The notes under the pieces: model-generated
Seen by the model: the letters and a program-made list of their open reading frames with translations, nothing else
Told to the model about the DNA's origin: nothing
The model's database searches: none
Position numbers and translations under genes: made by a program
Part shown: positions 2,019 to 30,196 of the stretch, piece by piece
Layout: the number at the start of each line of letters is the position of its first letter
Position numbering within the stretch: the stretch's first letter is position 1
Assembly: GCA_024695445.1 (NCBI GenBank)
Contig: JAILIG010000186.1
Span: forward strand, 1 to 38,119
DNA length: 38,119 nt
From: Oscillospiraceae bacterium
GTDB taxonomy: Bacteria; Bacillota; Clostridia; Oscillospirales; Ruminococcaceae
Direction: 5' to 3'

Positions 2019-4514
2019 TCAGCCCTGCTTCTCGTATGCAAACGGCTCGCTGTGCAGTCTGTCAAGAACCTTGACATCCGGACCGCAGAGATCAGGATCC
2101 GTCCAGTCAATGTCATCGAAGCCGGTATTGTACTTCCAGTTGAAGTAGGTCAGAATTTGCTGTGCATCAAGTGCAAAGATCATGCCGTCGCCGTTCACAT
2201 CGCCTGCATAGTGTGCATACTTGCCGACTGCCTGCATGGAAGCCGGAAGTGCGTTGAAGGTCGGATCCTCGGTGTAGGTGAGGATTTCCTCCAGCGAGAA
2301 ACCGGTGTTGTAGAGCTGGTTGAAGAAGGTCAGAGCGCAGGTTGCGTCGAACGCGGTAACCATGTTGTCGAGGTCGAAGTCGCCGCGGAGGACGAGGATG
2401 ACCGGCAGCACGCCGTTGGTGTCAGCGATCTTGCCCGCCTCAACCTTGTACTTCTTTTCCAGTGCGGAGATGATGTCGGCAGCGACGCCTTCATCGGTCA
2501 GTGCCTTCTCGATCGCAGCAACATCCTGCAGTGCGATCTGGATGTTGTAGTTGCCGAAGCCCTTGAACTCGAAATCCTGCGGGGACTTCTTGTCCGGAGC
2601 AAATGCAGCCGTCACATCAGCGGTCTTGTCGGTCTTTGCGCCGTTCTTGTCGATGACGGACAGAACCATCTTGACAGCCAGGTTGGTGAAGTCGAACTCT
2701 TCCGTCTCTTCGGACCAGTAGACCAGCTCTTCTGCCAGACCCTCAGCATCGAAGCTCAGCTCGTAGGTGTTGCCCTCCTTGTCGGTGACAGGAGCGGTCT
2801 CATCGGTGGTAGCAGTGGTGGTCGGCTCAGTGACCGGCTCAGTAACCGGTGCGGTGGTCAGCTCAGTCGTCGTGGACTCCGAAGTCGTAGACTCAGAAGT
2901 GGTGGACTCGGTGGTGGTCTCCGAGGAAGTGGTGGACTCGGTGGTGGTCTCCGAAGTCGTAGACTCAGAAGTGGTGGACTCGGTGGTGGTCTCCGAGGAA
3001 GTGGTAGACTCGGTGGTGGTCTCCGAGGAAGTAGTGGACTCGGTGGTGGTCTCCGAGGAAGTAGTGGACTCGGTAGTGGTCTCCGAGGAAGTAGTAGACT
3101 CAGTGGTGGACTCGGTGGTTTCCTCCTCGACCTTCTTCAGCAGGACCTCGTCGATGATACGGACGACATTGTAGTACAGCTTCTCGCTGTCGGTCAGTCT
3201 GTCCGTCTCAGCGTTCAGGGTGACTTCCTTGTGGGAGGTGACGGAAACGAGCTCGTAGCCTTCCTCTGCCCACTGGTCGCCGTATGCCTTCTGGATCTCG
3301 TCGAAGACCTCGTCGTTCTTGTCATCCTCAAGCTTGAACTCTGCGTCTGCAGAGAAGCCGTTCGGAATGGTGATCTCGTAATCGTAGCCTTCCTTGATGA
3401 TGGAAGCGAAATCGTCAGCGGAAAGATCCACATCGACCTTATCGGCAGCGATGCGCTTTGCGCCTTCGATCACATAGTCGATCCATGCCTGACCGCGGTC
3501 ACCGGTCAGAGCGCCCATGAAGGTCTCAGGCAGGCGATACATCTCAGCTCTTGCGCGCTTTGCGAAGCGGACAGAGGTCTCAGCATCGCCGATTGCATCG
3601 TAGACAGCCTGCTTGTAGTCAGCATAGACTGCATCCGGATCAGAACCGCTCAGGCTGATCGCGTTGATCGTATCGACAACGGACTCAACCTCGCCCTTCA
3701 GCGTCTCATAGCGGCCTCTGTAATACTGAATGTCCTCAGCGAGCTGCGGAGCATTCTGAGCAGTTGCCTCGTCAGCGATGAAGTCAACAGCAGCGTTGAA
3801 CTCCTCGGTGACATACTGGGTGAACTCATCGTAGCCGTCATAGGTCTTCTTGCCGTCGGTAAACACGACATTGTAGGAAGCGGTCTTGTCGTACTTGCTG
3901 TAATCGACCTCAACCGTGACCTCGCCGGTCATCGGGAACTTGTTCCAGTCCAGAACGACCGGATCGCCGTCTGCATTGACGAACTTGATGCCGCGTCTGG
4001 TGAGCGCATCCTCTGCCACGGAGCCGACGATCTCGTTGACGCCCTCGACGCTCATCACAGCGATGATCTTGCCCGGTGCTGCAACCTTGACATCAGCATT
4101 GCTGAAGCCGTTGACAAATGCGGTTGCCTCTGCGCGGGTCATGTAGGAGGTTCTTGCCAGGTTTCTGATGACAAGCTCTCTTGCCTTTGCGCCGAAGAAG
4201 CTTGCCTGGACGGAATCCTTGTCGCCCAGCAGGGTGTTCATTGCGCTTTCGAGCTGATCGTTCCAGTCGGACTCACCCCACTGAACAGCCTCAGCATCGG
4301 ACTCCTCGCCTTCGATAACGACAGGGAGCTCGTCGATGGCCGGAAGCGGGCAGACATCGGTATCCACAGGGACATCGGTCAGCCAGGCCTTGTCAAGGAC
4401 GGTGCCGGAAGCGCTGTCAGCTGCGTTGATGTTGATGCCTGTCGCGGCAAGCTGGCTCACGAGGAGCACGGAACCGGTTGCGGTTGCGAGCACACGCTTA
4501 AAAAGTGATTTCAT
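2019..4514 (-). CDS. Secreted dockerin-like protein with Thr/Ser/Glu-rich linker
   Basis: Signal peptide MKSLFKRVLATATGSVLLVSQLAATG. C-terminal EF-hand-like pair GDFDLDNMVTAFDA.../GDVNGDGMIFALDA... typical of dockerin-like modules. Linker of ETTTESTTSS repeats. Confidence 0.8.
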   Translation of the reverse strand: MKSLFKRVLATATGSVLLVSQLAATGININAADSASGTVLDKAWLTDVPVDTDVCPLPAIDELPVVIEGEESDAEAVQWGESDWNDQLESAMNTLLGDKDSVQASFFGAKARELVIRNLARTSYMTRAEATAFVNGFSNADVKVAAPGKIIAVMSVEGVNEIVGSVAEDALTRRGIKFVNADGDPVVLDWNKFPMTGEVTVEVDYSKYDKTASYNVVFTDGKKTYDGYDEFTQYVTEEFNAAVDFIADEATAQNAPQLAEDIQYYRGRYETLKGEVESVVDTINAISLSGSDPDAVYADYKQAVYDAIGDAETSVRFAKRARAEMYRLPETFMGALTGDRGQAWIDYVIEGAKRIAADKVDVDLSADDFASIIKEGYDYEITIPNGFSADAEFKLEDDKNDEVFDEIQKAYGDQWAEEGYELVSVTSHKEVTLNAETDRLTDSEKLYYNVVRIIDEVLLKKVEEETTESTTESTTSSETTTESTTSSETTTESTTSSETTTESTTSSETTTESTTSESTTSETTTESTTSSETTTESTTSESTTSESTTTELTTAPVTEPVTEPTTTATTDETAPVTDKEGNTYELSFDAEGLAEELVYWSEETEEFDFTNLAVKMVLSVIDKNGAKTDKTADVTAAFAPDKKSPQDFEFKGFGNYNIQIALQDVAAIEKALTDEGVAADIISALEKKYKVEAGKIADTNGVLPVILVLRGDFDLDNMVTAFDATCALTFFNQLYNTGFSLEEILTYTEDPTFNALPASMQAVGKYAHYAGDVNGDGMIFALDAQQILTYFNWKYNTGFDDIDWTDPDLCGPDVKVLDRLHSEPFAYEKQG
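2870..3120. repeat. Intragenic minisatellite (about 30-bp unit) encoding ETTTESTTSS
   Basis: Repeated gtggtggactcggtggtggtctccgaggaa units inside 2019-4514. Confidence 0.85.
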
Positions 4515-4627
4515 TCAAACCTCTCCTTAGTATGAAATTTATGTAAGGTGCGGCGCGGCAGACTGCGGCTGCAAATCAGCGGGGTACGGCAGACGGCACT
4601 TCGCCCACGGCACATATACATATTGAC

Positions 4628-4656
4628 ATTATAGCATTGTTTTTTAGAAAATGCAA
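4628..4656 (-). promoter_or_regulatory. Promoter for dockerin gene
   Basis: Minus strand TTGCAT-N17-TATAAT. Confidence 0.7.
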
Positions 4657-4860
4657 GCCCTTTCCCCCAAATTGTAAATATTCAACAAACGCCCCTGTCC
4701 ATATTTGTTCCGTTTTGCTGAATCTAACATTTTGTATACTAAAAGTTGTGATTTTGCGCGGATGCGGGCTGTTTTTTATGCACAATTTCTCCAATTTCCG
4801 GTAATTTTCTGTATACATTTTGTTTTATAATAAAAATATATAAAACTTTCACAAAACCTC

Positions 4861-4889
4861 TTGACATTCTTTGAAACTTGTGGTATAAT
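4861..4889 (+). promoter_or_regulatory. Consensus promoter of orphan RNA transcript
   Basis: TTGACA (4861-4866), exactly 17 nt, TATAAT (4884-4889) with upstream TGg. Confidence 0.85.
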
Positions 4890-4895
4890 ACAATC

Positions 4896-5322
4896 AAACC
4901 AAAGCTGTACCGCGTACAGCCGGAACGGAGGAGAGACCAATGGGCTGACCGCACAAGATTCACCAATCAAACGCTGAAAAAGGATGTGTTTCCCATGCAG
5001 AAGTTGATTTCCCGCTGAACCCCTGCAAAGCATCAGGGAAAGCGGCTGTCCGAAGATGAATTCAGGACATTCACGATATAAGCCCTGCGGCTGCTGCAGA
5101 CCGGCACCGCAGTTCACGAAAAAAGGATGTGTTTCCGATGTACAGGAAATCAGGGCTCGCAGAGCCGTAAAAGAAAGTCCATTCAAGACTCCGAAAGGAA
5201 GTGCTTCCGATGCAGTCGGAACCGGGTGCGGAACGGCGCTGAGGCGCACCGCACCGCTCAATCAGGGATTACAACAGGGCAGAGCCGTCACCCGTGCAGA
5301 CGGCTCTGCCCTTCCTTTTGTC
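4896..5322 (+). ncRNA. Candidate structured RNA or micro-ORF transcript with three internal repeats
   Basis: Own promoter and terminator. Hairpins at 4904-4920, 5012-5045, 5047-5069, 5085-5112, 5154-5166 and 5225-5255. Repeats AAAAAGGATGTGTTTCCCATGCAG, AAAAAAGGATGTGTTTCCGATGTACAG, CGAAAGGAAGTGCTTCCGATGCAG. No plausible long CDS. Confidence 0.65.
5277..5322 (+). terminator. Intrinsic terminator of orphan RNA
   Basis: GGGCAGAGCCGTC acccgtgca GACGGCTCTGCCC then TTCCTTTTG. Confidence 0.8.
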
Positions 5323-28104: not shown

Positions 28105-28244
28105 CAAAAACAGAAAGAGAACGCTTTTGCGCCTGCGGCGGATCAGGCACGGGCTTTTATTGCACTTCGCAGGCAGTCTGCCCGTGTACGGTCTGGTACA
28201 TTCCGGGATTTCCCGGAATTTAACGCCTTCTCTTTCTGTTTTTG
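28105..28244 (+). ncRNA. 140-nt structured RNA element upstream of DinB-like/RT operon
   Basis: 17-bp closing stem CAAAAACAGAAAGAGAA (28105-28121)/TTCTCTTTCTGTTTTTG (28228-28244). Inner hairpins GCCTG..CAGGC, CACGGGC..GCCCGTG, ATTCCGGGattTCCCGGAAT. Possible pseudoknot GCCTGCG/CGCAGGC. Confidence 0.5.
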
Positions 28245-28845: not shown

Positions 28846-30087
28846 ATGATGTCCATGCTCGAACAACTGAAAGAACCCGCCGTCTGGGAACGGTTTTACG
28901 AATACAAAGCTTCGCTCGCAGTTCCGGGCTCGTTTCTGCCGGAGCTGCGCCGTTTTATCGACAGTCAGGGCTATCTGCCGGTCTGCGCACGCATCGAAGC
29001 GGGCGAGGCATTTCCCCTGCCGTCCAAAAGCATCATCAGCAAGCTGCACACGCAGAAAAAGCGCACGGTCTATACCTATCCGGATGCGGAAAACACCGTT
29101 CTCAAGCTGCTGACTTATCTGCTGCTGCGCAAATATGACAGCCTGTTCAGCCCGAATCTGTTTTCGTTCCGGCCCGCCCGCACGGCCAAGGACGCCGTCC
29201 GCCGCCTGACGGGGACAAAAGGCATCCGGCAGATGTACGCCTACAAGGTCGATATCAGCAATTATTTCAATTCGGTGCCGGTCGGACGGCTGCTGCCGAT
29301 GCTGGAGGCCGTAATGCCGGATGATCCGGCGCTGTTCGCGTTTCTGTCGGAGCTGCTGACGGCAGAGGGCGTCCGCGACCGCGGGCGCATCATCTCCGAG
29401 GAAAAGGGCATCATGGCCGGAACGCCGCAGTCCTCCTTTTATGCAAACCTGTATCTGCGGACGCTGGATGCGGCGTTTTATGCGCGGGGCATCCCCTATG
29501 CGCGCTATTCGGATGACATCATCCTTTTTGCGCCGACACCGGAGCTGACTGCGGAATACGCCGCCGAGGTGCGGGACGCGCTCCGTGCGGCAGGGCTTCG
29601 GATCAATCCGGCAAAGGAATGCTTCTTTGCGCCGGAGGACGGCTGGAGCTTCCTCGGCTTTTATTTCCGGGACGGCGAAATTGACATCGCGCCGGCATCG
29701 GTGACGAAAATCAAGCATAAAATGCGCCGCAAGGCACGGGCGCTGGCACGCTGGAAAGCACGCGGGCGCTTCACGGGCGAGCAGGCGGCAAAGGCGTTTA
29801 TCCGGATCTTCAACCGCAAGCTGCTGGAAAGTGCGGACGGCGGAGAGCTGTCCTGGAGCTGCTGGTTTTTCCCGGTCATTACGACGGCTGACAGCCTCCG
29901 CGTGATCGACCGCTACGCGCAGGACTGCCTGCGGAGCCTCATCAGCGGGAAGCACACAAAGGCGCGGTTCAATGTCCGGTACGGCGATCTGAAGCGTCTG
30001 GGCTACGAGAGCCTCGTGCATCATTATTATGCCGGCGGAGCGTCCGCACAGGCTTCCGCCGCAGCACCGCCGCCCGAAAACAGATAA
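28846..30087 (+). CDS. Stand-alone reverse transcriptase (RNA-directed DNA polymerase)
   Basis: RT motifs: FSFRPARTAKDAV, YKVDISNYFNSVP (Asp at 29251), GIMAGTPQSSFYANLYL, YARYSDDIILFA (YSDD at 29506-29517), GWSFLGFYF. No intron endonuclease domain. Confidence 0.88.
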   Translation: MMSMLEQLKEPAVWERFYEYKASLAVPGSFLPELRRFIDSQGYLPVCARIEAGEAFPLPSKSIISKLHTQKKRTVYTYPDAENTVLKLLTYLLLRKYDSLFSPNLFSFRPARTAKDAVRRLTGTKGIRQMYAYKVDISNYFNSVPVGRLLPMLEAVMPDDPALFAFLSELLTAEGVRDRGRIISEEKGIMAGTPQSSFYANLYLRTLDAAFYARGIPYARYSDDIILFAPTPELTAEYAAEVRDALRAAGLRINPAKECFFAPEDGWSFLGFYFRDGEIDIAPASVTKIKHKMRRKARALARWKARGRFTGEQAAKAFIRIFNRKLLESADGGELSWSCWFFPVITTADSLRVIDRYAQDCLRSLISGKHTKARFNVRYGDLKRLGYESLVHHYYAGGASAQASAAAPPPENR

Positions 30088-30123: not shown

Positions 30124-30196
30124 AGCTGTTTACTGGATTTGAACCAGCGACCTCATCCTTACCAAGGATGTGCTCTACCAACTGAGCTAAAACAGC
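30124..30196 (-). tRNA. tRNA-Thr (anticodon GGT)
   Basis: Minus GCTGTTTTAGCTCAGTTGGTAGAGCACATCCTTGGTAAGGATGAGGTCGCTGGTTCAAATCCAGTAAACAGCT. Cloverleaf with anticodon loop TTGGTAA. Confidence 0.95.

Follow-up and report, generated by a model that had tools for sequence, protein, structure and literature searches.

The closest described counterparts of the RNA gene reported here are minigenes or mini-ORFs (lambda bar, the LEE1 and LEE4 leaders and axe-txe; PMC8708949), in which a Shine–Dalgarno (SD) sequence precedes an open reading frame (ORF) of 2–10 codons and the start–stop arrangement matters, not the peptide. These are single leader elements acting in cis. A repeated GGA-containing motif in a stand-alone small RNA (sRNA) is familiar from CsrB and CsrC, an RNA of 0.3–0.5 kb with a short ORF from the peptide-coding sRNAs SR1 and RNAIII, and genus-wide occurrence at a length of a few hundred nucleotides from the large ornate RNAs OLE, GOLLD and ROOL. 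The present locus lies in a 38,119-nucleotide stretch of DNA from an Oscillospiraceae bacterium (the window) and resembles all of these in part. Its predicted modules each place an SD, a start and a stop within a few codons, as minigenes do, but they are arrayed in tandem on an RNA that stands alone and has its own terminator, and there is no constant downstream gene on which they could act in cis. GGA motifs are multiple (usually 3–6), as in CsrB/CsrC, yet each leads into an AUG and a stop in the same frame, and the host has no CsrA. Unlike the peptide-coding sRNAs, it holds many ORFs with no peptide conservation; unlike the ornate RNAs, it has no Rfam match and no conserved large fold. An independent RNA consisting of a tandem start–stop array was found neither in Rfam nor in the papers searched (a limited library, which did return minigenes). 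Because the array matched nothing in either, we rate the stand-alone tandem-minigene architecture, with conserved starts and stops and free peptides, as new.

All parts of the unit are on the plus strand. Its promoter (TTGACA-N17-TATAAT, 4861–4889) had been called textbook in a sequence-only reading of this DNA, and deserves the name: 12 of 12 consensus positions match, an extended −10 TG is present (TGGTATAAT) and the element is conserved in homologues. An A/T-rich UP-like element with a conserved CACAAAAxCT stretch (4820–4860) lies 5′ of the −35 and is kept in 28 of 28 homologues; the transcript probably starts near 4896, at an A. A 5′ hairpin (GCTGTAC-cgc-GTACAGC, 4904–4920) is apparent from sequence and folding, with no conservation across the genus. 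Near-identical repeats, three copies of AAAGGAWGTGYTTCCNATG, stand at 4979–4997, 5122–5140 and 5194–5212, against a chance expectation of 0.10, with none of the shuffles giving three; that reading had recognized them as resembling ribosome-binding sites (RBSs), and a fourth module is present besides. The whole genome of the organism contains no further exact match to the repeat pattern beyond the three of the window, so this motif is not its ordinary RBS. At the 3′ end, the proposed intrinsic terminator (5276–5321) is a 14-bp hairpin with loop ACCCGUGCA and a U-rich tail, and the hairpin itself (5276–5312) has a fold z of −6.7; the predicted 428-nucleotide transcript as a whole has z = −3.3. 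With its own promoter and terminator, and conserved as a family, the locus is the self-contained unit that had been suggested. It is also undescribed, as claimed, and distinct from tmRNA, RNase P, SRP and 6S RNA: Rfam covariance models gave nothing at the gathering score and one insignificant match at a permissive threshold, and ARAGORN found no tmRNA.

We searched for homologues by blastn of relatives, a motif scan, a covariance model of the terminal hairpin, and synteny. The architecture is present, in single copy, in 28 of 30 congeneric genomes; of the two without it, G002 retains only about 130 bases of contig upstream of the partner gene, and G011 is fragmented. The RNA gene is probably universal in its genus, whose members are gut and rumen bacteria. 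Outside the genus no array was detected by the terminal-hairpin model in 299 family genomes (matches lacked modules) or by the module model in 199 (isolated weak matches only), and viral contigs yielded nine single-copy pattern matches and no arrays. The RNA is always divergent from an ortholog of the same partner gene (2019–4514, minus strand; MKSLFKR...), which is found at every homologous locus, encodes an 831-aa secreted protein with a weak C-terminal dockerin match, and has its start codon ~290–400 nucleotides from the −35. Downstream genes and their orientation vary between genomes; three distant congeners share a tRNA gene immediately 3′ of the RNA, with GAC as its apparent anticodon. 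The dockerin-like partner gene has a conserved transcript start of its own (AAUAUGUAUAUGUG; ~4514–4650, minus strand), which in many congeners has a potential pairing partner, GACACAU..GUACAUAAU, 5′ of the RBS; such a 5′ stem could possibly stabilize the mRNA.

Each repeat in the window comprises an RBS and an ATG that opens a micro-ORF of 2–10 codons. Module 0, the additional one, lies 5′ of the three repeats behind GGAGGAG, and is supported by sequence and homologues: its RBS (AACGGAGGAGAGACCA, 4924–4939) leads into micro-ORF 0 (ATGGGCTGA, 4940–4948), which encodes MG before the stop, most congeners having MG, MGC, MGA or MGR. Repeat counts and module comparison define the RBSs of module 1 (AAAGGATGTGTTTCCC, 4979–4994), module 2 (AAAGGATGTGTTTCCG, 5122–5137) and module 3 (AAAGGAAGTGCTTCCG, 5194–5209); module comparison also defines their micro-ORFs MQKLISR (4995–5018), MYRKSGLAEP (5138–5170) and MQSEPGAERR (5210–5242), each closed by a stop. 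Homologues in the genus usually carry 3–6 modules per RNA. A stop occurs within 14 codons in 93 of 102 modules, compared with a mean of 54 in shuffles (s.d. 5, maximum 70), figures that give a direction and not an exact probability because the homologues are related (shuffles therefore overstate significance) and because GG and CC were demanded of every module. The same count in the other two frames is 42 and 41; the nine exceptions with longer ORFs are each the last module of their RNA, and not one of 74 micro-ORFs reads into the following module. Stop codons are freely interchanged (45 TGA, 43 TAA and 14 TAG across the 102 modules). In most species micro-ORF 0 is ATGGGC with a stop directly after or one codon later, the stop being kept by way of TGA, TAA, TAG, TGCTGA, TGTTAA, GCATAA or CGCTAA. 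Differences among homologues in codons 4–7 of micro-ORF 1 fall evenly over the three codon positions (283/320/309), with no third-position bias to indicate purifying selection on the peptide, which is therefore not the selected thing. By sequence comparison, start and stop are conserved and the peptides are not.

The module consensus, AAAGGA-T/C-GTG-n-T-n-CC (the module criterion itself demanded GG and CC), approaches complementarity with the 16S rRNA 3′ end, read in a congener as GGATCACCTCCTTT (complement AAAGGAGGTGATCC). Later modules universally carry an SD mismatch at −10, where G never occurs (0 of 74); in module 0 the mismatch is mostly at −8, not −10. The module CC may also pair with the 16S tail, to judge from its sequence, and CC at −3/−2 is seen in 2 of 42 ordinary genes. 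In the predicted local fold the GG of the SD is partly paired with the CC 5′ of the AUG (unpaired probability 0.26–0.32), so initiation might be weak. A putative GGA..UCC hairpin that would close the RBS keeps its third pair in 64 of 74 later modules, and not in module 0.

A hairpin around the stop of micro-ORF 1 (CCGCT..AGCGG, inner CCCTG..CAGGG; 5012–5045) is supported by folding and by covariation in homologues. Among 24 distinct ATGCAG ORFs of 6–8 codons, a stem of at least five Watson–Crick pairs surrounds the stop in 15 (shuffles 1.2, maximum 6), the longer hairpin of the window itself falling outside this scoring, and the pairs of the scored stems change among homologues (CCGGG/CCCGG, GCGGT/ACCGC, CGGAT/ATCCG and CCGGC/GCCGG). 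In the micro-ORF 1 cases among the homologues, the stem begins at +16 to +18; ribosome footprints place the leading edge of a ribosome sitting on a start codon at about +16 to +18. The terminal hairpin also covaries (259 pairs kept versus 103 in shuffles, 23 sequences), with several pair types at most stem positions. Its loop core is CCCGUG in 27 of 28 genomes (UUCGUG in the other, G005) and is kept even in genomes with no U-run after the hairpin, for which reason the loop sequence probably has a role beyond termination. A complement to the loop within the RNA itself occurs in only 2 of 28, and a further hairpin near the 3′ end, CCGGUAUGGUAUAGGCCGG, is kept in a subset of the congeners (seven loci). 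Of the at least seven hairpins counted at the outset, comparison thus supports the terminal and ORF1-stop ones, where covariation is present; the other linkers lack conservation. The idea of a large ornate RNA class finds no support here, the linkers being poorly conserved and the start–stop modules being what is kept, and putatively translated tandem-minigene RNA is accordingly a better term than structured noncoding RNA.

Elsewhere in the window is an RT-5 RNA (Rfam RF03026, 92.8 bits; 28127–28231), upstream of a reverse transcriptase gene (28846–30087) that resembles group II and Drt/retron reverse transcriptases below their cut-offs; a tRNA-Thr gene lies beyond it (30124–30196, minus strand). 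The group may represent an RT-based system, either for defence or mobile. The micro-ORF RNA loop, CCCGUGC, has a complement in the RT-5 RNA, GCACGGG; this segment is paired inside RT-5, so the match is probably coincidental.

With a probability of roughly 0.45, we read the locus as a strongly transcribed, stand-alone tandem-minigene RNA that would load and hold ribosomes, either as a decoy or reservoir or for an action of the RNA in trans. Comparison shows conservation of the promoter, the modules, the shortness of the ORFs, the ORF1-stop hairpin and the terminal CCCGUG hairpin; high expression we infer. Ribosomes would initiate at each module, slow down where the hairpin meets their leading edge, terminate after a few codons and then leave or rebind, and each RNA would carry several ribosomes in unproductive initiation. 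The likely effect in trans would be to keep initiating ribosomes occupied, buffered or reserved, with the RNA itself kept stable; pairing via the terminal loop would be a secondary, putative activity. Some features count against ribosome loading: it does not by itself account for the CCCGUG loop or for a CC that never varies, and the SD mismatch at −10 is systematic after the first module. We consider it unlikely that this is a ribosome-parking RNA, with each module built to hold one initiating ribosome and the whole acting on translation initiation as a reversible reservoir or governor; in micro-ORF 1, the hairpin would then sit at the leading edge with the stop in the hairpin loop.

The CCCGUG loop could instead be the seed with which a trans-acting sRNA pairs with target mRNAs, micro-ORF translation serving only as a shield from nucleases. 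This is somewhat unlikely. The loop is held over covarying stems, including those with no U-run where it is not part of a terminator, and transcript stabilization by minigenes and strong SDs has been reported (PMC8708949), but complements of the loop in the 5′ UTR of the partner gene are scattered matches only, pairing with that UTR is at chance by the crude measure of full-length duplex energies (own UTR mean rank 14 of 28), and the 3–6 modules go unexplained. A protein sponge would make use of the repeats, and for GGAUG repeats CsrA is the natural candidate. The CsrA version fails, the genus lacking this protein: PF02599 is absent from this genome and 18 congeneric ones, the search having found it in three control genomes and three genomes of the order's other families. 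The original suggestion of a decoy or sponge thus falls for CsrA and may hold for ribosomes. We regard as quite improbable a sponge for some other RNA-binding protein that recognizes the GGAUGUG..CC element; the motif recurs 3–6 times, is constrained far beyond the needs of an RBS and has a GG..CC able to close a small hairpin, yet the in-frame stops would be superfluous and its absence at other genes leaves no obvious regulon to relieve.

Nor does the array readily pass for a tRNA-titrating RNA like phage lambda bar, whose ORFs of 2–3 codons slow translation through the release of peptidyl-tRNA. Toxicity by this route is reported for two-codon minigenes (PMC8708949), and micro-ORF 0 is MG-stop with others MYR-stop or AUG-stop, but the last codons are diverse and many ORFs have 7–10 codons, which makes this very unlikely. 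An operon of functional micro-peptides is less likely again: micro-ORF 1 often reads MQKYSxG, but the even spread of its differences over codon positions and the free variation of the other ORFs in length and sequence argue against selection on products. As for control of the downstream gene by the RNA as its leader or attenuator, the next gene in the window is co-directional, but the terminator intervenes, that gene has its own promoter-like site, and the differing downstream genes and orientations contradict the constant regulated gene of a leader-peptide attenuator; we find the proposal scarcely credible.

If the tandem-minigene RNA is translated, as the ribosome-loading reading supposes, it would represent a new use of ribosomes by a cell, on an RNA without a protein product, and ribosome sequestration by RNA would become directly testable.
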